The notes under the pieces were generated by a model. That model had not been told where the DNA came from. It saw only the letters and a program-made list of their open reading frames with translations, and made no database searches. Below are positions 5,667 through 49,800 of a DNA stretch of 64,000 nt, piece after piece. This stretch comes from Acidimicrobiales bacterium. GTDB lineage: Bacteria > Actinomycetota > Acidimicrobiia > Acidimicrobiales > SZUA-35. The stretch lies in NCBI GenBank assembly GCA_020630195.1, contig JAHDBV010000006.1:1-64000 (forward strand). The letters are read 5' to 3'. The first letter of the stretch is position 1, and every line of letters begins with the position of its first letter. Both the position numbers and the translations under genes were made by a program.

Positions 5667-5667
5667 C

Positions 5668-6186
5668 TCAGTCGATGCGTCGCAGATCGGTGCGATAGGT
5701 CGAGGCACGCTCGGCGTAGGCCGCGGCGGACAACTCGATCAACCCCGCCGGCACCGAGTCGGGCCGGATCTTCGCCGGGATCCCGAGTGCCATCGCACCG
5801 GACGGCACCTCGGTGTCGTTGGTGACGACGGCGTTCGACCCGACCAGCGCGCCCGAGCGCACGACGGCCCGGTGCAACACGATCGAACCATTGCCCACCA
5901 ACGAACCCGACTCGATCGTGCACCCCTCGAGGTGCACGATGTGGCCGATCGTGCAGTCGTCGCCGACCGTGGTCGGCCACTCCGGTGTGGTGTGCAGCAC
6001 CGACCCGTCCTGGATCGAGGTCCGCTCCCCGATCTCGATGTGGCCGCCATCACCTCGCAGCACGGCCTGGGGCCACACCGAGGAACCGGCGCCGATCCGC
6101 ACGTCGCCGATGATCGTGCAGTCCGGATGGATGAAGGCGTCGGGATGGATCGTCGGGACGAGATCGCCGAGGGCGTAGATGGCCAT
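5668..6186 (-). CDS. gamma-carbonic-anhydrase-like hexapeptide-repeat protein
   Basis: The 172-residue protein is a left-handed beta-helix of the YrdA/PaaY/CaiE gamma-carbonic anhydrase family. It has the signatures VWPQAVLRGDGG, SIQDGSVLHT, GHIVHLEGC and GNGSIVL, and hexapeptide periodicity throughout. The His of VLHT and the two of GHIVH are at the metal-ligand positions. Members are trimeric cytosolic metalloproteins; some hydrate CO2 and others hydrolyse CoA thioesters or have unknown roles. Length is normal. The ATG is preceded seven bases upstream by a TAGCCT hexamer and no Shine-Dalgarno, suggesting a leaderless transcript. Confidence 0.88.
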   Translation of the reverse strand: MAIYALGDLVPTIHPDAFIHPDCTIIGDVRIGAGSSVWPQAVLRGDGGHIEIGERTSIQDGSVLHTTPEWPTTVGDDCTIGHIVHLEGCTIESGSLVGNGSIVLHRAVVRSGALVGSNAVVTNDTEVPSGAMALGIPAKIRPDSVPAGLIELSAAAYAERASTYRTDLRRID

Positions 6187-6193
6187 GGGCCGA

Positions 6194-6199
6194 AGGCTA
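6194..6199 (-). promoter_or_regulatory. TAGCCT -10-like hexamer, leaderless start of carbonic-anhydrase-like gene
   Basis: TAGCCT lies 7 bases before the ATG at 6186 on the minus strand. This places the expected transcription start at or next to the start codon. The same arrangement recurs at ten other genes in the window. Confidence 0.45.
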
Positions 6200-6231
6200 G
6201 GAGGCCCCGCAGGCCGGGGCGAGTCCGCCCG

Positions 6232-7200
6232 TCAGCGCAGACCGATGGCCGCGAAGGCGCTGCCGACGGCGGCGAAGACGTCGATGCCCTGGTCCCGCAG
6301 GTCGATGACCAGTGCCGACAGCGACAGCAGCACGAGCAGGGTGATCGTGACGTAGGCGACGGGGACGGCGCGGGTCATGTCGAGACGGATCGAGCGATCC
6401 CGGCGGAGCAACTGGGTGAACCACTCGACGATCACGGTCACGGCGTGGCCACCGTCGAGCGGCGGGAGCGGCAGCAGGTTCACGATGCCGACGGCGGTGG
6501 CGAGGATCCCGAACCAGATCAGGATGCCGGCGCTGCCCGACTCGACGGCCACACGGGTCCACTCGACCTGGGCGACCGGGGAGAGGAACCGGACCGGCGC
6601 CTCGACGTCGGCGTCGACGACCGAGTTGGCATAGGTGGCGGGCTGGGCACCGAGGGCGGCGAACGCCTGGAACGTGCCCTTGATGATGAGCCACACGTTC
6701 TCGTAGCCGGCACGCAGCGAGACCCCCCACGAGTAGCCGTCGACCCGGGCGGCCGCGGCGAAGGCGACGACGGCCGAGACGAGGTTCACGGCGGGTCCGG
6801 CGAGGATGGCGCCGAGGCGCCCGCGGGCCGTGCCGTTGCGGTAGGTGCCGGCCTCGTCGAAGCCGAGGGGCAGCTCCGAGGACGGGGTCATGCCCTCGAT
6901 CTTGACGTAGCCGCCGAGGAAGATGGCCTTGAGCCCGAAGCGGCAGTCGCCGACGTCGACGCCGACGATCTCGGGGCCGAACCCCCAGTAGAACTCGGTG
7001 GGCCGCATCCCGGCGGCCCGGGCGGCGAGGAAGTGGCCGCCCTCGTGGGTGACGATGATGATGCCGAAGATCGCGAGCAGCACGAGCGCGGTGGGCACCC
7101 ACACGGCGAGCACCACGATCGAGGCGATCGTGGCGCCGGCCCATCCCCAGTGGACGGACGGCAGGGTGCGATGGCCGGGCGAGGCGACTGCGCTGGTCAT
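6232..7200 (-). CDS. M50 (site-2 protease/RseP-like) membrane zinc metalloprotease
   Basis: The protein of about 322 residues has several transmembrane segments, the zinc-binding HEGGH in THEGGHFLAARAAG, and a second active-site motif LLPLPPLDGGH near the C-terminus. FLGGYVKI and LAGPAVNL are also typical of the RseP/S2P family. I see no PDZ domain in the loop between the active-site helices, so this is a compact M50 protease. Such proteases cleave membrane-embedded substrates such as anti-sigma factors. The frame extends further upstream, but the ATG at 7200 directly before the first hydrophobic helix is the best start. Its substrate cannot be inferred, because no sigma/anti-sigma pair is nearby. 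Confidence 0.88.
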   Translation of the reverse strand: MTSAVASPGHRTLPSVHWGWAGATIASIVVLAVWVPTALVLLAIFGIIIVTHEGGHFLAARAAGMRPTEFYWGFGPEIVGVDVGDCRFGLKAIFLGGYVKIEGMTPSSELPLGFDEAGTYRNGTARGRLGAILAGPAVNLVSAVVAFAAAARVDGYSWGVSLRAGYENVWLIIKGTFQAFAALGAQPATYANSVVDADVEAPVRFLSPVAQVEWTRVAVESGSAGILIWFGILATAVGIVNLLPLPPLDGGHAVTVIVEWFTQLLRRDRSIRLDMTRAVPVAYVTITLLVLLSLSALVIDLRDQGIDVFAAVGSAFAAIGLR

Positions 7201-23486: not shown

Positions 23487-24365
23487 ATGACCGCGGTCGA
23501 CCTCAACGGCATCACCATCGAATACGAGCGGACCGGGACGGGCGAACCGCTGCTGCTCGTCATGGGACTCGCCGGGCAGCTCACCTCGTGGCCGCCGGAG
23601 TTGGTGGAGGCTCTCGTGGCCGAGGGCTTCGAGGTCATCCGGTTCGACAACCGCGACGCCGGGCTCTCGACGGAGTTCTCCACCCCGCCGATGACACCGG
23701 CGGCCCAGGCCAAGGCGATGCTCACCGGACGGGCTCCCGACCCCGGCTACACCCTGTCCGACATGGCCGACGACGCCGCCGCACTCCTCGACCACCTCGG
23801 CATCGGCTCGGCCCACGTCGTCGGTGCGTCGATGGGCGGCATGATCGCCCAACTCATGGCGATCGAGCACCCGGCGAAGGTCCGGAGCCTGTGCTCCATC
23901 ATGTCGACCACCGGCTCACGCCGCGTCGGGCGCATGTCGCCCATGCTGCTGCCCGCCTACGCCCGGATCGACCGCGACCCGGCCAAGCGGTTCGAGGCCT
24001 CGATGACGATCTGGCGGTCGATCGCCGGACCGCACTTCGACGCCGAGCGTGCCGCCGATCGCATCCGGGGCGAGCAGGCCCGGAGCTACCGACCCGCGGG
24101 CGTCTCCCGCCAGACGATGGCCATCATCAACACACCGGATCGCACCGGGGCGCTGCGGACCCTCGACGTGCCGACGCTGGTGATCCACGGCATGCGGGAT
24201 CTGCTCGTGATGCCCTCGGGTGGCATGGCCACCGCCGAGGCCGTGCCCGGCTCGCGGCTGCTCATGTTCAACGACATGGCCCACGATCTGCCGCTGCCCC
24301 GCGTGGGTGAGATCGCCTCGGCGATCGCCGAGAACTCCCGACGAGCGGTGCCGGTCGCCGCCTGA
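23487..24365 (+). CDS. alpha/beta-fold hydrolase
   Basis: The 292-residue protein has the alpha/beta hydrolase core. The oxyanion region is VMGLAGQLTSW, the FDNRDAG strand is typical of the family, and the nucleophile elbow is VVGASMGGMIAQ. The acid is Asp in VIHGMRDLLV and the base His in FNDMAHDLP. It probably hydrolyses an ester or related bond in the cytoplasm; the closest recognisable type is the 3-oxoadipate enol-lactonase-like group. The last codons form the first unit of a 21-base tandem repeat that runs on past the stop. Confidence 0.85.
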   Translation: MTAVDLNGITIEYERTGTGEPLLLVMGLAGQLTSWPPELVEALVAEGFEVIRFDNRDAGLSTEFSTPPMTPAAQAKAMLTGRAPDPGYTLSDMADDAAALLDHLGIGSAHVVGASMGGMIAQLMAIEHPAKVRSLCSIMSTTGSRRVGRMSPMLLPAYARIDRDPAKRFEASMTIWRSIAGPHFDAERAADRIRGEQARSYRPAGVSRQTMAIINTPDRTGALRTLDVPTLVIHGMRDLLVMPSGGMATAEAVPGSRLLMFNDMAHDLPLPRVGEIASAIAENSRRAVPVAA

Positions 24366-24411
24366 GCGGTGCCGGTCGCCACCTGAGCGGTGCCGGTCGC
24401 CGCCCGAGCGG
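24343..24411 (+). repeat. 21-base tandem repeat, about 3.3 copies, across the stop codon of the alpha/beta hydrolase
   Basis: The unit is GAGCGGTGCCGGTCGCCGCCT at 24343-24363, 24364-24384 (one change) and 24385-24405 (one change), followed by a six-base start of a fourth unit. The hydrolase stop TGA at 24363-24365 lies at the junction of the first two units. A later unit boundary repeats TGAGCGG. The array therefore moves with the gene's 3' end and could have duplicated the stop codon. Confidence 0.9.
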
Positions 24412-24681: not shown

Positions 24682-25278
24682 ATGACCGACCTTCGCCTTC
24701 CCCCCGTGGACCGCACCCCCACCCCCGCACCCACCGTGCGTCTCCAGTCCCGAGACGACGAGACCGTCGATCACGACGACACCGGTGCGCTCGACGTGGT
24801 CGACGAACCGATGGACACGGCCGAGATCGACGACACGACGGCGGAGCTCGCCGACACGATCGCGGACCTCCAGGCGGAGAACGCCGAACTCCAGGCCTAC
24901 CTCGACCGGGTGCTCGAGGCGCTCGCCGCCACGGCGGCCGCCGGCTCGGAGGACATGACCGAACTGCTCGACGATCCGCTCGCGCCGACCCAGTACCACC
25001 GGGCTCCCGGCAGCAGCGCCACCACCACCGTCGAACCCTCCATCGAGCCCGTGGCCCGCTCCGTCGCCGCTCGCCCGTCGGGGCTCGACACCCCCGAGAA
25101 CGAACTCCCCCCTGTGGAACCCGGCGCCGATCCGCTCCCCCGCCGCCGGGCCACCGACCGGATCGAAGCCCGGATCGAGGCGACCCAGCAGGCACTCGGC
25201 GAGCTCATCTACCTCCTCGAGTGTGAGCAGCGGGCTCGCGACGAGTTCGAGTCCGAACCCGGCGGCGACGCCCGATGA
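24682..25278 (+). CDS. first gene of the glucan operon, acidic coiled-coil protein of unknown function
   Basis: The 198-residue protein is not recognised. It is hydrophilic, has no signal peptide or membrane segment, and contains a short coiled-coil (ELADTIADLQAENAELQAYL). A Pro/Glu/Thr-rich middle and a second helical part near the end (RIEARIEATQQALGELIYLL) follow. Starts at 24664, 24670 and 24682 are possible; ATG 24682 has GGAG six bases upstream. Its stop overlaps the ATG of the glycosyltransferase (ATGA), so the two are translationally coupled. A scaffold or assembly role for the synthase is only a guess. Confidence 0.7.
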   Translation: MTDLRLPPVDRTPTPAPTVRLQSRDDETVDHDDTGALDVVDEPMDTAEIDDTTAELADTIADLQAENAELQAYLDRVLEALAATAAAGSEDMTELLDDPLAPTQYHRAPGSSATTTVEPSIEPVARSVAARPSGLDTPENELPPVEPGADPLPRRRATDRIEARIEATQQALGELIYLLECEQRARDEFESEPGGDAR

Positions 25279-27107
25279 TCGGCAAGCGGAAGAACCGTCG
25301 CGCCGCCGACCAGCGGCCGGCCACCGAGACGGCCGAGCTCGCCACCGAGATCGACGGCGACGAGATCGAGGTCATCCGACATCCGTTCGCTCCCCCGCCC
25401 GTCGAACAGCACGACGTGCCCTGGCGTGACTTCCAGCAGTCGACCAAGTTCGCCGTCATCCTCGGCCTCGCGTGCGCCGGCTGGTACCTGACCTTCGTCT
25501 ACGACCGGGCCCACGAGAACTCGCCGCTGCTCTGGGTGCTCACCGTGATCGCCGAGTCGATCGTGGTGCTGCACACCATCGGCATCTGGTCGACCCTCGT
25601 GTCCTACCGGTCCGACATCCCCGAGCCGGAAGACCTCGCCGTCATCCGGCGCTCGCTGCTGACCGGGGAGATCCCGACCCCGGCCACCGACGTCTTCATC
25701 TGCTGCGCCGGTGAGCCGGCCCACCTCACCACCAAGACCGCCATCGCGGCGCGGGACATGCTCCTGCCCCACAACACCTGGATCCTCGACGACGGCAAGA
25801 ACCCGCTGATCCGCCAGATCGCCGACGAACTCGGCATCGGCTACCTCAAGCGCGAGACCAACGCCCATGCGAAGGCCGGCAACGTCAACGCCGCCATCCA
25901 GCGCACGACCGGACGCTTCGCGGTGGTGCTCGACGCCGACCACGTGCCGCGTCCGGACATGCTGACCCAGACGTTGCCCCATCTGATCGCCAACCCGTCG
26001 ATCGCGATGGTGCAGACCCCGCAGACCTACGACATCGCCCCGAACAACATGGTGTCCGAGGGCGCGGCCGTCTCCCAGGAGCTGTTCTACGAGGCGATCA
26101 TGCCGGCGAAGAACGCCTCGAACTCGACGTTCTGCGTGGGCACGAACGTCGTCTACCGCCGGGCGGCCCTCAAGTCGCTCACCACCCGTGAGCCGACCCG
26201 ACGGGAGCGGGCCAAGGCCGGCGCCCGCCGCGACGGGGATCCCGTCGAGCGTCCGATCACCGCACTCGGTGAGGAGTACCCCGAGGGCGGCATCTGGATC
26301 GGCTCGAACTCCGAGGACATCTGGACCTCCCTCGAGTTCCACCGCCGCGGCTGGCGCACGGTGTTCCTGCCGAAGGTGCTCACCCAGGGCCTCACGCCGG
26401 ATCGGCTCGGCGCGTTCATCAAGCAGCAGTTCCGCTGGGCGTCCGGCGGCTGGGAGATCCTGCTGTGGTCGAAGTTGCTGCGCTCTCACCGACTGACGCT
26501 CAGCCAGAAGATCCAGTACATGCTGGTCCCGAGCCACTACGCCCTGTCGGTGGCGACGATCATCTTCGCCTTCATGTCGCCGATCTACCTGTTGGCCGAC
26601 AAGTCGCCGATCTCGGCGAGTGTGTGGGACTGGGCCATCCACTACGTGCCCTTCTACTTCCTCACCGTGGCGGTGCCGTTCCTCCAGGCCGGCAAGATCC
26701 GACCGTCGGCCATCCTCGTGTCGATGGCGGCCGCACCGGCCCACGTGCGGGCGCTGCTCGCCACGGCCATGAAACAGAAGGCCAGCTGGTCGGCCACCAA
26801 CACCCGTGGCGGTCGCTTCAACCCGCGGATCATCGCCCCCCACCTGTTCGTGGCCGCCCTCGGCCTCGTCTCGTTGTTCTTCGGTTGGGCCGTGCCCGGC
26901 CGCAACCCGACCTCGACGCTCATCGCCTCGGGGTTCGTGATCCTGCAGTTCATCATCGTCATGTCGATCCTGTTCGGCGGTATCCGCTCCGAGCGCCAGG
27001 CCCGCGAGGCCGAAGAGCTCGAGCCGACCGACGAAGAGACCCTCGCCATGCTGCGCGACTACCTCGCCCACCACGAGAAAGCCCCGACCGATGCCCTCCC
27101 CGTCTGA
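25275..27107 (+). CDS. processive family-2 glycosyltransferase, candidate beta-1,3-glucan (curdlan-like) synthase
   Basis: The 610-residue membrane protein resembles BcsA and curdlan synthase CrdS. Two N-terminal hydrophobic helices precede a GT2 domain with ILDDGKNPLI, AKAGNVNAAI, VVLDADHVPRPD (the DxD type), a SED in place of TED (GSNSEDIWTSLEFHRRGW) and QQFRW of the Q(Q/R)xRW motif. Several C-terminal membrane helices would form the translocation channel. I see no PilZ domain. Activity would transfer glucose from UDP-glucose and extrude the chain. The operon ends with a GH81 endo-beta-1,3-glucanase, which argues for a beta-1,3-glucan rather than cellulose; the linkage cannot be read from the sequence itself. 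The start overlaps the previous stop; the 3' end overlaps the next gene by 17 bases. Confidence 0.85.
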   Translation: MIGKRKNRRAADQRPATETAELATEIDGDEIEVIRHPFAPPPVEQHDVPWRDFQQSTKFAVILGLACAGWYLTFVYDRAHENSPLLWVLTVIAESIVVLHTIGIWSTLVSYRSDIPEPEDLAVIRRSLLTGEIPTPATDVFICCAGEPAHLTTKTAIAARDMLLPHNTWILDDGKNPLIRQIADELGIGYLKRETNAHAKAGNVNAAIQRTTGRFAVVLDADHVPRPDMLTQTLPHLIANPSIAMVQTPQTYDIAPNNMVSEGAAVSQELFYEAIMPAKNASNSTFCVGTNVVYRRAALKSLTTREPTRRERAKAGARRDGDPVERPITALGEEYPEGGIWIGSNSEDIWTSLEFHRRGWRTVFLPKVLTQGLTPDRLGAFIKQQFRWASGGWEILLWSKLLRSHRLTLSQKIQYMLVPSHYALSVATIIFAFMSPIYLLADKSPISASVWDWAIHYVPFYFLTVAVPFLQAGKIRPSAILVSMAAAPAHVRALLATAMKQKASWSATNTRGGRFNPRIIAPHLFVAALGLVSLFFGWAVPGRNPTSTLIASGFVILQFIIVMSILFGGIRSERQAREAEELEPTDEETLAMLRDYLAHHEKAPTDALPV

Positions 27108-28077
27108 TCTCGACAAGCTCCTGGCCGAAGGGCGGGGCCTGCAGCAGCAGACCCGCACCGGCGTCCGCACGGGCCGCCGGGCCTCCGATCCGGTCGTCAC
27201 CGAGAGCGATCCCGCGATCGTGCTCGACGGCAACGGCGGCGGTGCGCCGGTGATCCAGTACGTCGCCGCGCCGGTCGAGGCCGCCCCGGCCGGGCCCCGC
27301 GCCACCACCAACCTGCAGGCGACCTGGATCGATCCCGAGGAGATGCCCTTCACCCCCGTGCCGAAACCCGGCAACACGGTGGCGTCGCGGATCTTCTCGC
27401 TGTTCGTGGCCGCCGTCTTCCTCGGTGTGCTCGGTTGGCTGATCATCCCGGAGGTCTCGTTCCGGATCCGGACGGCCGACTCGGTGACGCTGAACGACGG
27501 CATCCTCACCGCGCAGGCCGTGCCGCTGGCCCCGATCCGTCCGGCGATCGTCGACGAGGTCTACGTCTCGGCCGCCGACCTGCGCGACTCGGTGCTGCCG
27601 GCGGGCACGCCGATCGCCCGTCTCGAGTCGATGACCATCGACGGCGAAGGCATCGAGACCTACGACATCTCCGCCCCGTTCGACGCCCGCTTCGTGTCGA
27701 TCGACACCCTCGAGGGTGCCGTCACGTTGCCGGGCACCCCCGTCGCCACGGTGTTCGACCCGACCGCGATGTACGTCATCGCCGCGGTCCGTCCGGAGAC
27801 GCTCGACTCGCTGCGTCGGGGCATGCTCGTGGAGCTCCGCTCCTCCGCACTCGACGGCACCATTCCGGGCGAGTTGATCTCGGCGGTGCCGCTGCTCGGC
27901 ACCGAGCACGAACCGACCACATCCGAGCTCGTGAACGTGCGGATCCGTCCGGATGCCGACGCGATGGCCGACCTCGTCCCGGGCATCCGCTTCGAGGCCC
28001 GTATCGACCTGTCCTCCGCGCCGGAGGACGCACCGCCGATCGTGTTCACCGACGCCGACCACGTCGTCGCCGAGTGA
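27091..28077 (+). CDS. HlyD/Alg44-like membrane-fusion protein of the glucan operon
   Basis: The 328-residue protein has a ~100-residue cytoplasmic N-terminus rich in Gly, Arg and Pro, and one transmembrane helix (FSLFVAAVFLGVLGWLII). An extracytoplasmic part follows that looks like a barrel-sandwich/membrane-fusion fold. It has NDGILTAQAVPLAPIRPAIVDEVYVS, LPAGTPIARLESM and DISAPFDARFVSIDT, followed by the adaptor-like VRPETLDSLRRGM. In cellulose and alginate systems such partners (BcsB-like, Alg44) guide the polymer out. Here the same role is inferred from position. It overlaps the glycosyltransferase by 17 bases and the GH81 gene by one. Confidence 0.72.
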   Translation: MPSPSDLDKLLAEGRGLQQQTRTGVRTGRRASDPVVTESDPAIVLDGNGGGAPVIQYVAAPVEAAPAGPRATTNLQATWIDPEEMPFTPVPKPGNTVASRIFSLFVAAVFLGVLGWLIIPEVSFRIRTADSVTLNDGILTAQAVPLAPIRPAIVDEVYVSAADLRDSVLPAGTPIARLESMTIDGEGIETYDISAPFDARFVSIDTLEGAVTLPGTPVATVFDPTAMYVIAAVRPETLDSLRRGMLVELRSSALDGTIPGELISAVPLLGTEHEPTTSELVNVRIRPDADAMADLVPGIRFEARIDLSSAPEDAPPIVFTDADHVVAE

Positions 28078-30137
28078 TGATGTCCGAGGCACGCCTGGCC
28101 GCCGGCATGGGCGGGGCCGTGGTGGTCCTGGCCGCTGCCGGCTGGCTCCTCGGTCGGGCGGCCACACCCGACGTGCCACCGGCCCCGCTGCCCATGGAGA
28201 TCGTGATGGACGAGGGCACCGCCGATCGTGCCGTCGCCCCGGTGGTCCAGGGGCGCGCGCTCGCCCCCACGCCGTCGGAGAACCGCGCCCCCGAACCGAC
28301 CGCCTGGGCGGGTGGTGACGGGGGCGTGCCCACCGCCACGTGGTGGTCGGCGCTGGCCGCCCCCACCGACGACGCCACCACCGTGTGGGCCCAACCCCTG
28401 GCGTTGCGCTGGGAGGACGAGACCCTCGCCGTGTCGCTCCGGGGTCCGGAGGCCTCCGGCGAGTTCGAGGGCGTCACGTTCACGCCGTTCGTGCCGACGC
28501 TGCGGTTGACGGGAACGCTCGCCGAGCGTCCCGACGTCGTCGATGCCGGACCACTCCACGTCCGTCTCGCCACCGACGCGGCCACGCTCACCCTCGCCCA
28601 GGGCATGCCGGTCATCGAGATCGACCTCGTCGACGGCGCCGAGCCGGCGGTGATCGAGATCCCCGGGATCTCCCCCGACACCACCGCCTTCGCCGGCGGG
28701 GTGCACATCCGTGGCGCCGAGGGCACCTGGACGATCGCGGGTGCGGACGTCGCCTCGATCGACGGCGTCCGTGTCGAACTCCGACCCGAGGGCGACCGGA
28801 TCGTGCTCGCCCCCATGCCCGGCGACGCCGACCTCACCGCCTGGGAGGCCTCGCTCGCCTCCGCCGTGGCCGCACCACTGATGGGCAGCGACGAAGCCCT
28901 CTCGCTCGACCCCGACGGGGCGGCACGCCAGGTGCTGACCTGGGACCGTGGCGCCGGTGTCGGGCCGATCGCCTGGCCCGACGACCGGCTCGACGAACTC
29001 GTCGACGCACCCGAGCCGATCGGACACCTCGACTCGGCCCTCGGACGGATGACCGTGTTCGCCGCCGGCCGTCTGACGGTGCGGGCGGCGGCGGTCGACA
29101 CGTCCTTCACCCCCGACGGCATCACCGATCCCGGCGCCCTCGTCGCCGCGATCGAGACCGACCTCGAGAACGCCCCCGCCCCGACCGCCGGGTCGTACTT
29201 CGGGGGGAAGCGGCTCTGGTACCACGCCCGCCTGGCCGACCTCGCCACGGCGGCGGGCGCCCCGGAGCTGGCCGATCGGGCCCTCGAGGTCGTGCGCGAC
29301 GGCCTCGCCGACCTCGCCGACCCCACCGCCGAGCCCCGGCTCACCTGGAACGACGAGTGGGGTGCGGTGGTCATGGTGCCCGCCGAGTTCGGCTCCGACG
29401 TCGAACTCAACGACCACCAGCTGCAGTACGGCTACTGGGTCGCGGCCGCCGCCGTGCTCGCCGAACACGATCCGGTGGGCACCGACGCCTTCCGTGAACT
29501 CGTCGACGTGCTCGCCGCCGATCTCGGCGGGGCCGACGCCGCGCCGCCCGACACCTCGGCCCGGGCCGACGGTCTGGCCGACCACCGCATCTGGTCGGCC
29601 TATCACGGCCACGGCTGGGCGTCGGGCCTGGCCCGCTTCGCCGACGGCAACAACCTCGAGTCGATCTCGGAGTCGAGCTTCGCCTGGTGGGCGGTCGCCC
29701 GGTGGCGCCTCGCCACCGATCGTGACGACGCGGCGGTCGAGACACAACTCGCACGATTCACGATCGAGACCCATCGCGGCGCCGACCGGTGGTTGCCGAC
29801 CGGCCCGGTGGCCGGGCGCCCCTGGTCTGGCGTGGTGTGGGCCGCGAAGTCCGACCCCTCGACGTGGTTCCACGCGAGCCCCGAAGCCGCCCTCGGGATC
29901 CGTCTGCTGCCGCTCGGGCCGAACAGCCTCGCCCGCTACTCCACCGACGGGGCCGTGGAGGCCGCCGAACGTCGCTGGGCCTGGTGTGCGGGCCACGGCG
30001 GGTGCGCAGACCTGTGGCCGGGCCTGCTCGGCTCCGACGCCGTCGTCGCCGGCGCCCCCGAACCCGTCCTCGGTGCCGAACCGGAAACGGGCACCGGCAC
30101 GGCCGTGCTCGAGTGGTGGCGTCAGCGCTGGGGCTGA
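28077..30137 (+). CDS. membrane-anchored GH81 endo-beta-1,3-glucanase
   Basis: The ~686-residue protein has an N-terminal uncleaved-type helix (AGMGGAVVVLAAAGWLLG), a Pro-rich linker, a beta-rich region and a C-terminal catalytic region. The latter contains GH81 hallmarks: YFGGKRLWYHARLADLA, EFGSDVELNDHQLQYGYWVAAA, HGWASGLARFADGNNLESISESSFAWW and FHASPEAALGIRLLPLG. The Asp of LNDH and the Glu residues of NNLESISE match the active-site positions as I recall them. GH81 enzymes cut beta-1,3-glucan endolytically. Together with the synthase it would trim or release the product, as BcsZ does for cellulose. The start has two consecutive ATGs; the first shares its A with the preceding TGA. Confidence 0.82.
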   Translation: MMSEARLAAGMGGAVVVLAAAGWLLGRAATPDVPPAPLPMEIVMDEGTADRAVAPVVQGRALAPTPSENRAPEPTAWAGGDGGVPTATWWSALAAPTDDATTVWAQPLALRWEDETLAVSLRGPEASGEFEGVTFTPFVPTLRLTGTLAERPDVVDAGPLHVRLATDAATLTLAQGMPVIEIDLVDGAEPAVIEIPGISPDTTAFAGGVHIRGAEGTWTIAGADVASIDGVRVELRPEGDRIVLAPMPGDADLTAWEASLASAVAAPLMGSDEALSLDPDGAARQVLTWDRGAGVGPIAWPDDRLDELVDAPEPIGHLDSALGRMTVFAAGRLTVRAAAVDTSFTPDGITDPGALVAAIETDLENAPAPTAGSYFGGKRLWYHARLADLATAAGAPELADRALEVVRDGLADLADPTAEPRLTWNDEWGAVVMVPAEFGSDVELNDHQLQYGYWVAAAAVLAEHDPVGTDAFRELVDVLAADLGGADAAPPDTSARADGLADHRIWSAYHGHGWASGLARFADGNNLESISESSFAWWAVARWRLATDRDDAAVETQLARFTIETHRGADRWLPTGPVAGRPWSGVVWAAKSDPSTWFHASPEAALGIRLLPLGPNSLARYSTDGAVEAAERRWAWCAGHGGCADLWPGLLGSDAVVAGAPEPVLGAEPETGTGTAVLEWWRQRWG

Positions 30138-30140
30138 TCC

Positions 30141-31391
30141 TCAGTCGGTCGTCGGATCGGGCTCGGTGAGACCCCGGGCGACGACGATCGCCACGAGAAC
30201 GAGCGCGAGCGGCACGGCGATCACGGCCGCCTCGGCCCACCCCGCCGCATCGAGTACACCGGCGAGCGGGGGCCCGATGAGCCCGCCGACGCCGACCGAC
30301 AGGAACATGAGCCCGAGCACGCGGCCGGGAGGCCAACGCGGGAACAACACGAGCATGACCTCCGGGGCGATCGCCACGAACCCGCCGTAGGCGACACCGA
30401 GCACGACCGCGAAGACGGTGAGCAGCGCCACGTCACCTCCGGCGACCGCCCACAGGGCGAAGGCGACGACCATCGCGGCCAGGGCGCTGCGGAACACCCG
30501 GATCGCCCCGAGACGTCGCGCCAGCCCGGTGAGCCCGAGCCGCCCGACGATCGAGGCGAGCCCCACGAGGCCGAGCGTGCGGGCGGCGGTGCCACCGTCG
30601 ACGCCGTTGCGCTCGGCGAACGGGATCACGAACCCGAAGGCGATGTAGAGCCCGATCCCGAACAGCATCGAGACCACGAACACCCGCCGGAACACCGGGT
30701 CACGGGCGATCTCGACGTTGCGGATGCGGAGCGGTGCGGGCCCGGACCTCGCCGGCGGACGGGGCACGGTGGCGAGGCCGAACACGAACGCCGCCGCGGC
30801 GATCACGGCCAACCAGCGATAGGCGGTGCGCCACCCGTGGTCGGAGATGAGCGCATCGGCGAGGGGCACGAGCACGAGCGTGCCGAGCCCGTTCCCGGTG
30901 GCGACCACCCCGAGCGCAGTGACCCGCTGCCGGTCGAAGAGGCCACCGATCACGGCCGTGAGGGGAGCGACGAAGAGACCACCGCCGAGCCCCATCCCGA
31001 GTCCGACGGTGAGGTAGGCCGCCTCGATGCGGTCGACCGAGGCGGTCGCGAGCAACGAGGCGACGAACAGGGCACCACCCGCAGCGAGCAACGGGCGGGG
31101 TCCCACCCGGTCGAACCAGGCACCGGAGGCGGCGCCGAACCCGAAGAAACCGAGCAGCGTCAGGCCGAAGATCAGTGCGGTCGGGCCCGACCCGGCGTCG
31201 AACTCGGCCCGGATCTCGTCGAAGAACGCCCCGAACGTGTAGACGATCCCGAACGCCACGCCGTTGGCGATCGCCGCCCCGACACAGGCGAGCCAGGCCC
31301 TGCCCGAGTCGCGCCGCAGACCGGCCGGCGGCGATCGGGGTGTGGGGATCGAGGAGATGACCGCATTCTCCCCGATCCCCCGATCGGCCAC
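30141..31391 (-). CDS. major facilitator superfamily transporter
   Basis: The ~416-residue protein has about twelve hydrophobic helices in two halves with a central loop. The first half contains GVAFGIVYTFGAFFDEI and the MFS loop motif GAWFDRVGPRPLL; LGMGLGGGLFVAPLTAVIGGLFDRQR resembles the monocarboxylate/oxalate-formate antiporter group. The substrate is unknown. The start is uncertain: GTG 31391 is the first plausible codon after the upstream molybdoenzyme stop, while ATG 31484 would overlap that gene by 29 bases. It converges with the GH81 gene with only three bases between stops. Confidence 0.82.
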   Translation of the reverse strand: MADRGIGENAVISSIPTPRSPPAGLRRDSGRAWLACVGAAIANGVAFGIVYTFGAFFDEIRAEFDAGSGPTALIFGLTLLGFFGFGAASGAWFDRVGPRPLLAAGGALFVASLLATASVDRIEAAYLTVGLGMGLGGGLFVAPLTAVIGGLFDRQRVTALGVVATGNGLGTLVLVPLADALISDHGWRTAYRWLAVIAAAAFVFGLATVPRPPARSGPAPLRIRNVEIARDPVFRRVFVVSMLFGIGLYIAFGFVIPFAERNGVDGGTAARTLGLVGLASIVGRLGLTGLARRLGAIRVFRSALAAMVVAFALWAVAGGDVALLTVFAVVLGVAYGGFVAIAPEVMLVLFPRWPPGRVLGLMFLSVGVGGLIGPPLAGVLDAAGWAEAAVIAVPLALVLVAIVVARGLTEPDPTTD

Positions 31392-31455
31392 CAGCGGGAG
31401 CCGGGGCCGAACGATCGGTCCCGGTCCGTCCGCGACGGACCGGGTGGGACCCCGC

Positions 31456-32277
31456 CTAGAAGCCGGCGTCCCAGGTGTAGCCACGCTCGGCCCAGAAGTC
31501 CCGGGGCCGGTCGTTGGTGAAGCGGATCAGACCGATGCGCTTGATCGACTTCACGCCGTACTTGTGGGGCGTCGCGAGCCGCAGCGGGGCTCCGTGGAGC
31601 TGCGTGAGCGGCTCACCGTTGAGATGGGTCACGAGCAACGTCTGTGCGTTGAGCATCGTCTCGCGGTCCATCCCGACGTAGTAGTCCCCGTCGGGGGTCT
31701 CCATCGCCACGTACTCGTAGTCCTCGGCGACACCGAGTCGCTGGACGAAGTCGGCGAACCGCACCCCGGTCCAGCGGGGCTTGGCCGACCAGCCCTCGAT
31801 GCACTTGTGCTCGACCACGTGGTCGACCGGCTCGAGTCCGTCGAGGAGCTCGAGACCACCGGTGGTGATGGCCGCACCATCGAGCCCGACCACCCGCATC
31901 TGCCAGGCGTCGAGGTCGATCTCGTCACGGACGCCGTGGCGACCGTTGACCCGGATGTCGGTGGCTTCGTCGAGGGCGAAGGTCGGGGCGAGCTTCGAAC
32001 GGTCGCCGATCCTCGTCCAGAGGCCTTCGTTGAACTCGTACCCCCGACGGAGCACGTCGGGGATGTTGCCGTCTTCGGGGCGTCCCTGGAGCACACGCCA
32101 CCCACCGAATCCGGCGGCCGCGCCGGCGAGCCCGGTGAGGAAGGACCGCCGGCTGCGGGTGCGGTGTTCGGCGGCGGAGCGGACCACCACGGGATCACCG
32201 AGGTGGGAGGTGGGGAGCCCGTCGACGCCGTCGTCGGTGGCGGGCCCGGTCTCGTGGGTCGGGTTCGACTCGTTCAT
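31456..32277 (-). CDS. MsrP/sulfite oxidase-like molybdopterin-dependent oxidoreductase with Tat signal
   Basis: The 273-residue protein has a twin-arginine motif (SRRSFLTGLAG) about 44 residues in, so it is exported folded by Tat. The Oxidored_molyb domain follows, with the molybdenum-ligating Cys in EHKCIEGWS, then RFADFVQRLG, GDYYVGMDRETML and LHGAPLRLATPHKYGVKSIKRI. This is the MsrP (YedY)/sulfite oxidase fold without a dimerisation domain. It may reduce methionine sulfoxide or another S/N-oxide at the cell surface. Its ATG overlaps the stop of the cytochrome b gene (ATGA), which probably supplies electrons. Confidence 0.88.
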   Translation of the reverse strand: MNESNPTHETGPATDDGVDGLPTSHLGDPVVVRSAAEHRTRSRRSFLTGLAGAAAGFGGWRVLQGRPEDGNIPDVLRRGYEFNEGLWTRIGDRSKLAPTFALDEATDIRVNGRHGVRDEIDLDAWQMRVVGLDGAAITTGGLELLDGLEPVDHVVEHKCIEGWSAKPRWTGVRFADFVQRLGVAEDYEYVAMETPDGDYYVGMDRETMLNAQTLLVTHLNGEPLTQLHGAPLRLATPHKYGVKSIKRIGLIRFTNDRPRDFWAERGYTWDAGF

Positions 32278-40826: not shown

Positions 40827-43800
40827 TCAGCGCCGCTCGTGGCGCCGGGAACGGCCCACGAGGAGGAACACGAACCCGAGGGCCAGGAGCAACACGGCCA
40901 GGCCGAGGGTCTGGCCCGTGCCCGCGCCGGTGTAGGCGAGCGGGTCCGTCGGCTCGTCGTCCCCGCCTTCACCGGCGTCGCCCTCACCGTCGGTGTCGAG
41001 CCCGTCGATGTCGGGCCCGAGCGGGCCGCCGCCACCGAGCGGGGGTCGGGTGGTCGACTCCGGCGCGTGGGTGTTGACGAGATCGAATCGCTCGACGGCG
41101 GCGTCGATCACCACCGCCGCGGAGCCCGACGGGTAGGAGGCGAGGTAGTCGCCGCCGCTGTCCTCGGACACGACACACCGTGACCCGAACGAGATGGCCG
41201 GAATCGACAAACCGTCGCTGGCCGTCACCACCCCGGTGCGGACCGACACGTCGCCCGTCGGATCGACGCAGCGCACGCTGATGTCGAACCCGCGGCCGAG
41301 ATCGATCACCGGGGCACCGCGGAGGCTCTTCACGATCACGAGCGTTCCGGCCTCACGGGTGTTGACGGTTGCCAACTCGCCCGGCTCGTCGCTCGACAGG
41401 ACACGTTCGGCCGCGCCGACGGTGGCCGCCCAGCCGGCGCCCGGGCTGAGCTCGGTCACCGAACAGCCGGTGCCGTCGGCCCGGAGCGGCAGATCGGGAT
41501 AGCCGACCGCCACGGAGGTCGTGGCGGCCCCCGGGATCTCGATGTCGAAGGTGGTGGCGTAGCCGTCGTCGCAGCGCACGGCGAAGCGGAAGGTGCCACC
41601 GAGGTCGGTCACGAGCGGGGAGTCGGCCCGGGTCGTCTTGCGCACGACGAGCTCGGCGGTGCGGTTCTCGACACCGACCACGGCGTCGTCGACGCCGTCG
41701 ACCGTGACGGTGGCGTCCACGGGTTCGTAGACGGGCAGGAACCGTTCGTCGTCGGCTTCGACGAGGGTGCAGACGGCTCCGGTGGGGAGACCCCCGACCA
41801 CCGCCGGCGAGACCGTCGACAGTTCGACCTCGACCGTGTGGCTGCCCTCGACGAAGTCGCCCTCGCACGTGAGGGTCGCGTCGAAGGTCTCACTCGCGAG
41901 ATCGTCGAGGGCGGCGTCGGGGGCGCCGACGACGGTCTTGTCGATCCGCACCTCGGCGGTGTCACGGATGTTCGTGAAGCGGGCGATCTCGGGCACGGCG
42001 GAGAACGTGACCGTGACGGGCTCGGTCGATGCCGGCGTCCAGCCCTCGGGCACGTCCACCTCGGTGACGGTGCACGACGTGCCGGCCGGGTGGTAGCCGG
42101 TCTCGGCCCAGGCGACCGACCCCTCACGACCCTCGGGCCCATCGGTGTCGGTGGTGACCTCGATGATCTCGTCGGTGCCGTCGTCGCAGACGACGTGGAA
42201 TCGGAACGAGCCGTCGAGATCGACCGGGTGGTCGGAGTCGGTCGTGGTCGCCTTGACGAGGATGAAGGTGCCGGTGGCGTTGGTGACGGTCACCTCCGCA
42301 CCGGCGTCGCTGACCAGGACGGTCCCGTCGATCGGGTCGGAGCTGGCGGCGAAGCGGGGGTCGGGCGACTCGGTCACGACACACGTGGCGCCGGTCGGCA
42401 GGTCGTCCACCGTGGCCGCGGCGATCCCCGAGATCACGGTGACGATCTCGTGGGCGCCGCCGACGAAGTCGCCGGTGCAGGCGACGGTGACCGGGAAGTC
42501 GAGGGTGCCGAAGACCTCGCCGGGACGATCGGGGTCGACGGTGTCGACGGCGACCCCGTCGAGCAGCTTGGTGATCGTCAGGGCCGCGGTGTCACGGGTC
42601 AGCTCGAACGTGGCGGTCGGGGTGTCGGCCTCCGGATCGGTCGGGTCGGGGACGACGAGGGAGACCGAGCCGGGGCTGGTGACGGTGCCGTCGTCGGCGT
42701 CGTCGAGGCCGGTGTCGGAGAGGGTCCACGCGGCCGGGGTCGACTGGACGACCTGGCAGGTGCTGCCGGGTGCGAGCAACGGCGGTGCGGCGGGGTCCCA
42801 CGGTCCGTCACCGGCGCCGTCGACGCCGATCACGACGGTGTCGGACCAGCCGGTTCCCCCCGACGGGGTGAGGCAGGTGATCGTGACGGTGACATCGACG
42901 GCGAGGTCGATCGGGTGCGTCGCCGGGGCGACCGTCGTGATGTCGAGATCGATCGTGCCGGTGCGGTTCTCGAGACCGACCTCGGCCGTGTCCTCGGCGG
43001 CCACCCGGACGGTCCCGTCGGCGGGGGTGGCGACGACACCGAAGCGGTCGTCGGGTGCTTCGGTCACGACACACGTCGCGTCCGAGGGCAGATCGGCGAT
43101 CACGAACGGCTCGTCGACCGACACGGTGCCGGTGACGGTGTGGGTGGCGTCGTCGAACCCGGAGGAGCACACGACGGTGACGTCGAACGGCTCGGCGTCG
43201 AGGTCGACCCCGGCGGGAACACCGGCGAGCGACTTGGTGATCTCGACCGCACCGGTGCGGCGTTCGTTCACGAACTCGGCGGTGACGGGGTCGGCGGCGG
43301 AGACGGTGAGGGTCACGGCCGCATCGCCCCGGAGGGTCCACGACGGGCCGGCGTCGAGCTCGGTCACGGTGCACGAGGTGCCGTCCGCGAGCAGTGGCAG
43401 TTCCGCATAGGTGAGGAAGCCGAACGAGCCGTCGGCCGTCGCGAGGCTCACGTCGAGGTCGTAGACGGCGTCGTGGGCGACACCACAATCGACCCGGAAC
43501 GAGAACGTCGCATCGGTGTCGATCGGATGCGTCGTCGGCGCCACGGTGCGCTTCGCGATGATCATCGACCCGGTGGCGTTCTCGACCGCCGCGGAGGCGC
43601 CGGCGTCACCCACGACGACCACGGCCGAACGTCCGTCCGGTGCGGGCGGGCTGTAGGTCGGGGCGAAGCGGGGATCGGCCGATTCGGTGATGTCGCACAC
43701 CGCACCGGTCGGCAGATCGTCGACGACGAGCGCCGTGTCGACCGACACCCGGGTGTCGCCGGTGACGACATGGGCGCCACTCGGATCGTTGCCCTCGAAG

Positions 43801-46800
43801 TCGCCGGCGCAGGTGATGGTGAGATCGAACCAGACGTCGTCGAGGTCGAGTGCGGCGGGCACCCCGTCGAGGGTCTTGGTGATCGTCAACGCCGCGGTGT
43901 CGCGCCGGTCGACGAACTCGGCGACGGCCGGGGTGCCGGCCACGGTCGTGAGCGGACCGCTCGGTTCGTCGACGAGGGTCCATCCGGTCGGCGGAGCGGA
44001 CTGGGTGATCGTGCACGAACTGCCCGGCGGCAGCAGCGGTGCGTCCGCGTCTCCCCAGGTGGTGCCGACCACGTGATCGTCGCCGGCCACGGCGACGGCA
44101 CCGTCGGTGGTGAGGGTGAGGGTCTCGCTGTGTCGGAGCACCGTGTCGGGGCCGACACAGCTGATCGTGATCGAGAACGTCGCCTCGAGGTCGAGGTCGT
44201 GGGTGGCCGGTCCGACGGCGTCGAGGGTCACACCGATGGTCGAGGTGGTGTTGGTGACCTCGATCGTGCCGTCGGCCTCGAGGGTGAGCTCGCCGGCGGT
44301 CCCGTCCACCGAGGCCGGGCTGTAGCTCGTCGTGAAGCGGGGATCCTGCGTCTCGACGACGGTGCAGACCGAGCCGGTGGGAAGGTCGGCCACGACGACG
44401 GGGGTGTCGGCGGTGACCGTGGTGGACACGGCGACGGCACCACCGGCGACGTCGCCGGTGCAGGTGATGTCGATGTCGAAGGCCTCGTCGTCGAGGTCGA
44501 ATGCGGCCGGGACCCCGTCGAGGGTCTTGGTGACGGTCAGGTCGGCGGTGTCACGCACGTTGGTGAACTCGAACGCGACGGGGGCGGCCTCGTCGGTGTC
44601 GATCACGACGGTGGCGTCGCCCTCGACGCTCCAGCCGGCGAGTGCGCGCTCGGTCACCGAGCAGGTCGTGCCCGGGGCGACGTGGAGGTCGTTCGGTGTG
44701 GTCACCGAGGTGGCCCCGTCGGTCGTGGTGAGGGCGATCGTCGTGGTCGTGCCGTCACAGTCGACGTCGAAGGTGAACGTGTCGTCGACCACGATCGGGT
44801 GGGTGTCGGCGGCCTCGGTGGTCTTGGTGATCGAGATCGTGGAGGTGCGATCGACGAAGGCGACCTCGGCGCCGTCGCCGGGCAGGGTGACGTCGAACGT
44901 GTCGTCGTCGACGGCGAACCCCGGCTCGGCGGCCTGTGTCACGGTGCACGAGGTCCCGACGGGGAGGTCGGCGATCACCAGGGGGGTCGTCTCGGACACC
45001 GTGAGCGGACCGGGCACGGTGTGGGTCCCGTCGACGGTGTCGAAGCCGCCGTCGCAGACGACGGTCACGTCGAAGGTGGTACCGGAGAGATCGAGACCGG
45101 GGGTGGCGCCGAGCACGTCGACGGTGATCGTCAGCTCCGCGGTGTCCCGGGTGTTCTCGAAGGCGAGGGTGGCCGTGGTGTCGGGATCGACGGTGACGGG
45201 GCCCGCCGGCGCCGAGGTCTGGCTCCAGCCGGTCGGCACGGTCTCGGTGGCCGAGCAGGTGGTGCCCGACGGCAGGAGCGGCAGGTCGTCGTAGCCGATC
45301 GATCCGACGGTGGTGGTCGCCGAGGCGGCGGTGTCGACCGGGACCACGACGCTCTCGTCGTAGCCGTTGGAGCACACGACCCGGAACGTGATGTCGAGGT
45401 CGCGGTCGACGGGGTGGGTGTCGGGAGCCCGGTTGATCTTGGTGAGCAGGACGTCGCCGGTGGCGTTGACGACGGCGACGGTCTCACCGTCATCGTCGAT
45501 CGTGACCTGCCCACCCGCGCCGCCCGCGGGGCTGTAGGAGGTCGTGAAGCGGGGGTCGGCGTCCTCGACGACGGTGCAGACCGAGCCGGTCGGGAGCCCG
45601 TCGATGGTCGCCGACGCCGAGGGCCGGATGGCGACGTCGTCGAAGCGCAGGTCGGCCCCGCCGACCCCGCCGGTGCAGGTCACGTCGACGGTGAAGGTGG
45701 TGTCGGCGACGACGGCGTCGGGCGCGCCGAGCACCGTCTTCGTGATCGTGAGCGACCCGACGTTCCGGTCGTTCGAGAACGTCAGCTCGGCGGGACCATC
45801 GCTCGAGATGGTCAGCGACCGGTCGTTGCCGCCGGTCAGGGTCCAACCGGTCGGCACGTCTTCGGTCACGGTGCACTCCATGCCGTCGGGCAGGAGGGGC
45901 AGGTCGGGGTGGCCGACCGTCGCGGCGACCCCGTCGACGATGTCGAGGGTGACCGTGAGGTCGGTGCGGCCGTCCTCGTCTCCGTCGTTGCAGACGAGCG
46001 TCAGGTCGAACGAGCCGTCGAGGTCGAGTGCGAGACCCGACGTGGTGGTCGTCGTCTTGGTCAACTCGACCACACCCGTGGCGTTGCGGACGATGATCAA
46101 CGAGTCCGAGGTGCCGACGACGGTCGACGAGCCCACGGGGTAGGTGGTCGTGAAGCGACGGTCCTGTTCCTCGGCCACGGCACAGGTCGTGCCGGTGGGG
46201 ACGTCGGTGATGACGACCGGCACGACCTCGGACACGCTGGAGGCGTCGGGCACGAGCAGCGGGCTGCCGAGCACGTCGCCGATGCAGACGACACTGATCG
46301 GGAACGCCTCGGCGCTGAGGTCGGCCGTGTCCGGAGCGCCGACGATCTGCTTGCGGATGATGACGTCACCCGTCTCACGGTGGTTGGTGAACGCCGCGGA
46401 TGCCGGGGCGTCGGTCGACGTGGTCACCTCGGCCGTCGTCGCCGAGGTCGGCGTCCAACCGGTCGGGATGGCGGTCTCGGCGATCTCGCACTCGGTGCCG
46501 GGCGGGAGCAGCGGGGCGTCGGGGGCGACGAACCGGCCGACACCGTCGGTGGCCGGGGCGACGACCTCGGTGCGCACCGCGACGGTCTCGTCGAACAGCA
46601 CACCGCCGGGCCCGGTGCAGGTCACCTCGAAGGTGAACGTCTCCGCGAGGTCGGTGAGGTCGCCGTCGGCCGTCGCGGTCTTGGTGATCTCGAACGACGA
46701 GGTCTCGGCCAGCACCGTGCGGGTGTTGGCTCCCTCGACGATGGTCACGGGCGTCGGGTCGGTGATCGTGAATCGTCCGTCGAGGTCGGTGGCGACGGTG

Positions 46801-49800
46801 CAGTCGGCCCCGGTGGGCAGGTCGTCGACGGTGACGGCGGCGTTCTCGGTGAGTGTGGTCGGGCCGACGACGATCGGACTCGTCGTGAAGTCACCCGTGC
46901 AGGTGATCGTGATCGTGAACGGTTCGTCGGTGAGGTCGACGCCGGGCGGGGCGCCGACGACGTCGAGGTCGACGACGAGCGAGCCGACCCGGCGCTCGTT
47001 GTCGAACGAGGCGGTGTTCTGGTCGCCGGCCTGGACGGTCAGGGTGACCGACGGCGCCGAGGTCAGGTTCCAGCCGGCGGGGACGACCTCGGTGATCGTG
47101 CAGCTGGTGCCGACGGGCATGACGGGGAGTTCGGTCCAGGTCAGGGCGCCGATGCCCATCCCGCCCGACACCTGGTCGACGGCGATGGTCCGCACCTCGT
47201 CGAACGCCGCACCACAGTCGATCCGGAAGTCGAACGACCCGAAGAGGTCGATGTCGTGGGTGGTCGCGGCCGAGGTGTTCTTGCGAATCACGAGCGTGCC
47301 GCCGGCGTTGATGATGCCCGCCTCGGCATCGGCGTCGAGGGTGACCGTGGCCCGATCGTCGTCGTCGGGGTTGTAGTAGGCCACGAATCGGGAGTCGGCC
47401 TGTTCGACGATGTCGCACGTCGTGCCGACCGGGAGATCGTCGATGACGAGCTCGGTCGTCGGGGTGAGCGTCCCCGTGACGACGTGGGCGGTCGGATCGG
47501 TCGTGAACCCACCGGTGCAGGTCACATCCACGGTGAAGGTCTCGGCGGTGAAGTCGAGGCCGTCGGGGATGCCGACGAGGGTCTTGTCGATGGTCAACGA
47601 GACGGTGTCGAGCTCGTTCACGAAGTCGGCCGTCTCGACCACGGCGGCGTCGGTCACGACGTCGACCGAGGCGTCGCCGACGATCGTCCAGCCGGCGGCG
47701 GCGGTCTCGGTCACGGTGCAGGTCGTCCCGGGCGGGACGAGCACGGCGGCGGTCGGGGCCCAGGCCCCGGCGTGGTCGGTGGTGGTGATCGACGGCGTGG
47801 CGGCACCGATCTCCGTGCCGGCGCCGTCGACACAGGACACGGCGAAGTCGAAGGTGCCGTCACCCTCGAGCGGGTGCGGGCCCGGGATCGTCACGGTCTT
47901 CGTGATGCCGACCGCGGAGGTGGTGTTGGTCAGGGTCGCCGAGGCGCCGCCGTCGGACACGAGCACGGGGTCGGCGGGCGCGACGGATTCGGCGAAGCGC
48001 GGATCGTCGGCCTCGGTCACCGTGCAGGTCGAACCGGTGGGGATGTCGCCGACGACGAGCGGCGTGTCCACCGAGACGGTGAGTGGGCCGGGCACGTCGA
48101 AGGTGCCGCCCTCGAACCCGCCGGTGCAGCTCACGGCGACGGTGAAGGCCTCGGCGTCGAGATCGATCCCGGCGGGGACGCCGGCGAGCACCTTCGTGAT
48201 GGTGAGTTCGGCGACGTCACGTCGGTTCACGAACCCGACGTCGACCGGGGTGTGGGCGCTCGTGGTGAACTGGACGCCGTCACCACCGACGGGTGTGCCA
48301 CCGGTGCGGGCGTCGATGGTCCAGCCCGTGGGCAGATCGGTCTCGCGGATCGTGCAGCTCGTCCCGGGGGCGACGAGGGGGAGGTCGGCCACGGCGGCCG
48401 CGCCGATCCCGTCGGTGACGTCGATCGTGACGGTCTCGCTGCCGGCGCCGCAGTCGATCCCGAACTCGAAGCCGCCGTCGAGGTCGATGCTCGCGTCGCT
48501 GGCGGTGGTGGTCTTGGTGAGGGTGAACGACGAGGTCGTGTTGGTGATCGTGACGATGCCACCGGCGTCGATGGAGATCGGACCCGCTGGCTCGTTCGTC
48601 GCCGTGAAGCGGGGGTCGGCGGTCTCGACCACGGTGCAGCTGGCACCGGTCGGGATGCCTTCGATCGTCCAGGACGTGTCGACCGAGACGGCGCCGTCGA
48701 GGCCGACCGAGCCGTCGATGAAGTCGCCGGTGCAGGTCACGTCGACGTCGAACGGCTCGGCGTCGAGATCGAGACCGGCCGGGACGCCGGCGAGCACCTT
48801 GTCGATGTCGAGGTCGGCGACCTCGCGTTCGTTGGTGAAGCCGAGTTCGGGCTCGGGGACCTCCGCGGTGATCGTGGCCGAGACGGTGGTCGCCCCGACG
48901 GGCGTCCAGCCGGCGGGCACCTGCTCGGTCGCCGTGCAGGTGGTGCCCGGCGGGAGGAGCGGGAGGTCGGTGTAGGGCACGCCGCCGGCGGCACCACCGG
49001 GCACGAGCGCATCGGTGACGACGAAGTGGGTCGCTTCGTGGATGGTCGTGGCGCCGTTGACGCAGATGATCTCGAACTCGAAGGTGTCGGTGAGATCGAC
49101 GGGCAGGGCCGAGTCGACCACGGCGTCCTTGCGCACCACGAGGGAGCCGGTCTGGTTGGTGATGTCGACCGACCCCGTGGCCTCGTCGAGGGTGATGGTG
49201 TCGGCGGGGCTGTAGCTCGCCACGAAGCCGGGCTCGGCCGTCTCGACCACGGTGCACTCGGTGCCCCGGGGCAGGTCGGCGATCACGACATCGGTGTCGG
49301 TGGCCACGGTGTGGGGGCCGGGCACCACGTGGGAGGCGACGGTGAAGCCCCCGGCACAGGTGATCGTGAGGTCGAAGTCGTAGGTGGACGGATCCTCGGC
49401 CGAGGGGAGGCCCAGGATCGACTTGGTGACGGTGAGATCCGACAGGAGCCGGGTGTTGGTGAACACGAGCTCGGGGGTCGTCGTCGAGGAGATCGTGACC
49501 GATCGGGTCGCGAGGTCGATCGACCACCCCGGCGGTGCGGTCTCGGTGACGGTGCACACCGCACCTTCCGGCAGCAGCGGCACGTCGGGGTACGACGCGG
49601 CGACGGTCTGGCCGGACGTGGTCATCGGGATCGTGACCGAGTCACCGGTGTCACACGAGATCTCGACACTGAAGGTGTCGTCGAGGTCGATCGGATGGGT
49701 CGAGGCACCGACGGTGTCGACGCGCAGGTCGATGGTGCCGGTGTGGTTCGTGAACTCGGCCGATTCGGTGCCGACGGCACCGTCGACGAGCACGGTGCCC

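Follow-up and report, generated by a model that had tools for sequence, protein, structure and literature searches.

Cellulomonas flavigena has long been known to make curdlan, and its synthase has been named, in the accessible text of the source, only by weak similarity to CrdS of Agrobacterium. Much curdlan was obtained from C. flavigena and a small amount from C. fimi and other species, and two GT2 glycosyltransferases with 35-39% identity to CrdS are present in each of the species C. flavigena, C. fimi and C. gilvus, the CrdS-like genes being named as Cfla_3154 and Cfla_2615, Celf_3456 and Celf_3585, and Celgi_1506 and Celgi_0939 (PMC3544764). As for the partners of such synthases, the accessible parts of the respective sources call the functions of CrdA and CrdC unknown (PMC10819609) and already describe BgsB as HlyD-like (PMC9495663).

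An operon that invites comparison with these systems lies in the window, the stretch of 64,000 nucleotides from an Acidimicrobiales genome that was analysed here, and combines a putative synthase with a HlyD-family protein and a GH81 hydrolase. All characterised members of GH81 are, to our knowledge, beta-1,3-glucanases, and the family needs contiguous beta-1,3 bonds. Judged from sequence and gene context, it is probable that the operon makes a beta-1,3-linked, curdlan-like glucan and processes it at the cell surface. An earlier note on this DNA had put it forward as a candidate beta-1,3-glucan operon, reasoning that the specificity of GH81 and its place in a synthase operon argue for this polymer as BcsZ argues for cellulose, and the proposal has gained from the near-universal linkage of GH81 to related synthases, the presence of the core genes in a genome inferred to be C. 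flavigena and the rejection of a grouping with BcsA.

Gene layout and predicted products

As the earlier note had described, four ORFs with overlapping ends, all on the plus strand, fill positions 24682-30137, and the successive overlaps measure 4, 17 and 1 bases.

Gene 1: 24682..25278, + strand, 198 aa; coiled-coil-like segments, no transmembrane segment (translation)
GT2: 25275..27107, + strand, 610 aa; putative processive beta-glucan synthase (Pfam, motifs, own clade)
MFP: 27091..28077, + strand, 328 aa; HlyD/membrane-fusion family, one N-terminal transmembrane helix (PF13437 above cut-off)
GH81: 28077..30137, + strand, 686 aa; predicted endo-beta-1,3-glucanase homologue with an N-terminal transmembrane anchor

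The start of gene 1 at 24682 (MTDLRLPP) is matched by the start of its homologue in locus L028 (MTELRLPP), and position 24565 offers an alternative in-frame ATG further upstream. Beyond the end of the operon, the next long ORF (30141-31484) is on the opposite strand, and searches of the operon returned no sigma-70-type promoter and no Rfam family. About 270 bases before gene 1, at the end of an upstream alpha/beta-hydrolase-like ORF, there is a 21-base tandem repeat in 3.3 copies (24343-24411). Elsewhere in the window, an ORF of about 3,530 aa on the minus strand (40827-51422), with 28 DUF5979 repeats, two DUF7601 and one DUF6923, probably encodes a giant surface protein.

The glycosyltransferase (GT) matches PF13641 (GT2; 7.5e-22) and carries the motifs DDG (D172), KAGN, DAD (220-222), QTPQ (247-250), SED (346-348) and QQFRW (384-388), and Pfam found no PilZ domain in it at E up to 1. 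The third gene had been read as a one-helix, membrane-fusion-like protein, in agreement with its match to HlyD_3 (PF13437; 6.6e-8, 33.7 bits versus a cut-off of 22.2) and its single hydrophobic segment at 101-119. A membrane-anchored GH81 had likewise been recognised in the fourth gene, where we find a C-terminal GH81 domain (1.1e-29, 104.2 bits versus a cut-off of 25.6) and a hydrophobic segment near the N-terminus (7-25), the N-terminal GH81 domain being undetected by Pfam. Its acids D446, E528 and E532 align with those of solved GH81s (6FOP, BH0236 5T49 and 4K35), and we take these to be the catalytic positions. Structure models of the MFP and the GT (nine sequences each) reached pLDDT values of 54.5 and 46.8 and were too poor to be used for a fold search.

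In the mechanism that we propose, the GT2 protein would polymerise UDP-glucose in the cytosol and export the lengthening polymer by a channel that it forms itself in the membrane, with donor, linkage and path all predicted. The HlyD-family protein, held by its one-helix anchor, may take over the chain on the outer side of the membrane, the part proposed for BgsB with mixed-linkage glucan. The membrane-tethered GH81 could cut beta-1,3 bonds of chains that are emerging or have stalled, and so control chain length or remove blockages, much as has been proposed for the GH8 enzyme BcsZ with cellulose.

Gene 1 had been noted as a coiled-coil gene, and its product does have such segments, with no Pfam family above cut-off. 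Homologues lie upstream of the GT in L028 and L029, L156 gives a weak match (E 1.1e-3) and L030 has an ORF that by eye looks coil-like; none was found in L052 or in the Actinomycetia loci. We regard gene 1, from this pattern of homologues, as an accessory apparently restricted to some Acidimicrobiia, where it might act as a class-specific helper, perhaps in synthase assembly or gating on the cytosolic side.

Conservation of the three-gene core

The conserved core of the operon is a set of three genes, GT2-HlyD-GH81, hereafter the triad. A scan of named genomes gave 21 loci, in eight of which (L028-L034 and L047) a GT is followed by a HlyD-like gene and then by GH81; these belong to Acidimicrobiales MAG-142, Aquihabitans sp. 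G128, an Actinomycetes MAG, two Micropruina, Glaciihabitans, another Actinomycetota MAG and Propionibacterium. In the remaining 13 loci the GTs score lower and GH81 is absent.

The linkage was quantified with a GT profile that was built from the GTs of this operon, GH81 forming no part of the scoring. GTs and GH81s were searched in the same two genome samples. One, of 117 genomes, was drawn from the family to which a Micropruina genome belongs, and the other, of 396, from the order that includes the Glaciihabitans genome; we inferred the names Propionibacteriaceae and Actinomycetales for them, respectively. A GT and a GH81 were counted as linked when they lay on the same strand no more than 8 kb apart. 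GT scores in these samples fall into two sets, one above 600 bits and one at 200-400 bits. A linked GH81 accompanies 29/29 high-scoring GTs in the Propionibacteriaceae sample and 58/60 in the Actinomycetales sample, against 1/9 and 0/22 low-scoring ones. The single low-scoring case is one fragment of a contig-split GT, whose other fragment (437 bits) falls in neither set, and the exceptions among the high-scoring GTs are G930, with its GT near a contig end and GH81 on another contig, and G666 (L076), with a GH16 in the place of GH81. Counted from the hydrolase, 32 of the 37 GH81 places in the first sample and 52 of the 82 in the second are near GTs above 600 bits. The near-universal linkage to high-scoring GTs leads us to reject GH81 as a chance neighbour.

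Among the fetched loci with a GT above 600 bits, a count that leaves out the short loci L001-L006 (L053 repeating the region of L028), the HlyD gene is found in 36/36 and GH81 in 35/36; a second batch has all three genes in 28/28 loci, the GT of L149 being split in two frames. Gene ends in triad loci frequently overlap by four bases. Five loci (L072, L073, L077, L135 and L148) have twin tandem GT-HlyD pairs, with either a single, shared GH81 or two.

Closer to the window, GH81 is present in 5/39 genomes of its own family, four of these having it beside the GT; in one locus of this family (L052:7778-9262, G006), a gene with DUF4397 domains directly follows GH81. GTs above 600 bits are rare in a class-wide sample of Acidimicrobiia (4/375 genomes), and one of these four loci, L156, belongs to another family and has the same gene order. 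In the genus of G921, the GT is matched in 53/81 genomes at an E threshold of 1e-60, in a few of them only at low score or in two pieces. A phylum-wide search for GH81 found matches in 6/396 genomes, the window's own among them, and in two of the other five (L092 and L093) that were examined no GT of the triad clade stands beside GH81. As the same order is kept in other genera, families and classes, it is conserved far beyond chance. The triad occurs across many actinobacteria, probably including C. flavigena, and the operon in the window is a deep-branching acidimicrobial member of this family with an extra coiled-coil gene.

The linked GH81s are tethered: in calls read by eye from simple scans, 29 of the 36 inspected have a lipobox-like N-terminus, six have a transmembrane segment only and one was left unresolved. 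Five of seven stand-alone GH81s look secreted and group in a separate clade (SH-aLRT 100), and the stand-alone GH81s of L091 and L095 fall among the linked ones in the tree. The GH81 of L095 (7703-9673, G661), near the linked ones in sequence, has no clear signal segment, and no GT was found nearby. These observations bear on a possible, if rather unlikely, reading in which the product is equally a beta-1,3-glucan and GH81 serves to mobilise the completed polymer from storage, without editing its synthesis. A storage function has been proposed for the curdlan of C. flavigena (PMC3544764, accessible part), and GH81 would be an endo-hydrolase at the cell surface, as such a role requires; however, its anchoring and its close genetic association with the synthase, the gene ends overlapping in many loci, fit an editor better, and free secreted GH81s occur separately.

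Synthase phylogeny and the linkage of the product

In an 84-row tree, 39 triad GTs lie on one side of a single branch (SH-aLRT 100). In a 47-row tree, the 17 triad rows group together (99/99), and a separate group (98/96) is made up of BcsA, CrdS, BgsA and a GT from Bradyrhizobium and is nested in a broader set of 21 rows (98/99); the trees include three CrdS references (two identical in the kept columns) and two BgsA sequences and leave out hyaluronan synthases. Constrained trees uniting the triad with CrdS (p-AU 1.1e-9), with CrdS, BgsA and the Bradyrhizobium GT (p-AU 2.6e-6) or with BcsA (p-AU 1.7e-6) were all rejected. These trees place the triad GTs in a distinct clade that excludes BcsA, CrdS and BgsA. 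The second gene had been described as a BcsA/CrdS-like GT, and it does belong to the processive GT2 enzymes, with a likeness to CrdS that holds at the level of the superfamily only; the suggested phylogenetic check gave no grouping with cellulose synthases. Beta-1,3 synthesis may thus, if our reading of the product is right, have arisen more than once among GT2 synthases.

The same data speak to a very improbable alternative, namely that the product of the GT is cellulose or some other beta-1,4 polymer and that GH81 is a passenger directed against foreign fungal or algal glucan. The best solved-structure matches of the window GT are cellulose synthases, the CelA model TIGR03030 matches it at 211.5 bits, and its identity is nearly the same to BcsA (27%) and to CrdS (28%). 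Yet the cut-off of CelA is 699.1 bits, PilZ, BcsB and a GH8 partner are absent, the clade with BcsA is rejected, and the GH81s are linked across families and tethered rather than secreted; moreover, it is GTs of other clades that carry GH8 or GH6 instead of GH81.

Hydrolases indeed differ among related loci. L076 is the only intact member with a triad GT and without GH81, and directly after its HlyD gene (4480-6435) there is a GH16 domain (4.9e-11) that follows a hydrophobic segment and contains GEVDILE, an ExDxxE motif that is presumably of laminarinase type. Another Actinomycetia GT clade carries GH8 in 5/5 loci (L084-L086, L114 and L115; two confirmed by Pfam), and L069, with a GT of yet another clade, has two GH6 genes; the GH8 and GH6 beside these GTs are beta-1,4 hydrolases. 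A simple rule tying hydrolase to linkage is opposed by L157, which groups with L069 in the tree and has none of GH81, GH16, GH8 and GH6 within its 7.9 kb, and by the GH16 genes near low-scoring GTs in L051 and L116. L051 (4980-10986), on a Sphingobium plasmid, has a GT2 with STAS and SpoIIE-type regulators and BcsS, with the GH16 nearby.

A mixed-linkage (1,3;1,4)-beta-glucan like that made by BgsA of Sinorhizobium meliloti has also to be considered as the product, and we judge it improbable, GH81 then cutting only where beta-1,3 bonds are contiguous. The pairing of GT2 and HlyD is that of bgsBA (L056; PMC9495663, accessible part). A profile of the triad MFP weakly finds the BgsB-position gene (3.9e-5 and 6.9e-7) and does not match the CrdA-position gene, but the triad GTs lie outside the BgsA clade and the constraint that joins them is rejected. 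GH16 enzymes can act on mixed-linkage glucan, although the motif of the L076 enzyme is presumably that of a laminarinase, and the strictly alternating polymer of S. meliloti lacks the contiguous beta-1,3 bonds that GH81 needs.

The synthase residues themselves give little guidance. The triad GTs have conserved catalytic motifs and share QTPQ, SED and CVGT with CrdS, QTPQ being present also in the GTs of the GH8 clade. At 35 alignment columns that distinguish the reference BcsA sequences from those of CrdS, the triad GTs have a consensus that follows BcsA in 9, CrdS in 7 and neither in 11, and they have none in 8. CrdS residues tied to the beta-1,3 chain include Q237, Q259 and K270, whose equivalents are kept by the window GT and by the GH8 clade too, and H374, W422, E439 and H442, whose equivalents the window GT does not have; in the CrdS reference (L054, plasmid pAt2), the nine residues looked up from the accessible text all fall on the same numbers (PMC6821405). 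Taken alone, the GT residues seem neutral on linkage, so that the case for beta-1,3 bonds rests on gene context. At the level of predicted proteins, what the sequence establishes comprises the families, the catalytic residues, the gene order and its conservation, the separate GT clade and the anchoring of the linked GH81s. We know of no polymer, enzyme activity or mutant for any GT of the triad clade; its members offer independent sequences for locating linkage-setting residues.

Cellulomonas and the relation to known systems

The triad is present in the genomes that we take to be those of C. flavigena, C. fimi and C. gilvus. The two best CrdS-like places in each lie at positions in proportion to the published locus numbers, at about 1.1 kb per gene (for C. 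flavigena, 3.505 Mb for 3154 and 2.926 Mb for 2615), and the best place in each is the triad GT, 35-36% identical to CrdS over the aligned stretch. Since positions fit locus numbers and the best place is the triad GT, the already suspected CrdS-like gene appears to be an operon member, and Cfla_3154, Celf_3456 and Celgi_1506 appear to belong to the triad family. The second CrdS-like GT of the presumed C. flavigena (L153) is of another clade, and no GH81, GH16, GH8 or GH6 was found near it or near its counterpart in the presumed C. fimi; this GT, without a GH81, could also be the C. flavigena curdlan synthase. The operon family points to one candidate gene set, in which the synthase has a polymer-specific partner hydrolase.

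Joining these lines, we lean with modest confidence towards a second origin of curdlan, in a synthase family of Actinomycetota apart from CrdS, with a built-in editor hydrolase that follows the linkage. The synthase would nearly always be accompanied by a HlyD protein and a beta-1,3-glucanase tethered to the membrane, and beta-1,3 synthases would have GH81 or GH16 where beta-1,4 synthases have GH8 or GH6, so that the hydrolase family would read out the linkage. If true, this would explain the curdlan of C. flavigena, and many genera where beta-1,3-glucan has not been sought would be expected to contain it. We found no description of a GT2-HlyD-GH81 operon among the open-licence papers searched, which is weak evidence of absence, as only such papers were covered; the accessible text of PMC3544764 relies on GT identity for the CrdS-like GT2s of Cellulomonas and names no HlyD or GH81 neighbour.

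The likeness to crdASC of Agrobacterium lies in a GT2 with a HlyD-family partner at the CrdA position and in the QTPQ, SED and CVGT motifs common to both. The third gene had been thought unlike CrdA, a view that we reject, as the CrdA-position gene of L054 is also of the HlyD family, with PF13437 above cut-off, and so is the BgsB-position gene. The differences are the distinct GT clade, the HlyD gene, which follows the GT in the window and precedes it in crd, the GH81, absent from three crd-like loci, and the lack of a fifth gene that might play the part of CrdC, whose positional counterpart in L054 has no Pfam match. The crdASC-like operons of L054 and L099 (HlyD-GT-hypothetical) are on plasmids typed as conjugative. 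With bgsBA of Sinorhizobium and Rhizobium the operon shares the GT2 and HlyD-family pair, including the weak MFP profile match, whereas bgsBA has two genes, with HlyD first and no hydrolase, and the GT clade is distinct. Solved GH81s have the same C-terminal catalytic domain with aligned acidic residues; the window protein differs in its membrane anchor and undetected N-terminal domain. The layout of synthase, membrane-anchored partner and polymer-matched hydrolase is that of bcsABZC, with GH81 for GH8, a distinct GT clade and no BcsB, PilZ or QxPH. The operon looks like that of a beta-glucan synthase equipped with its own hydrolase, here one predicted to match beta-1,3 bonds. The rule that synthases come with a hydrolase for what they make, drawn from cellulose, would then apply to beta-1,3-glucan as well.
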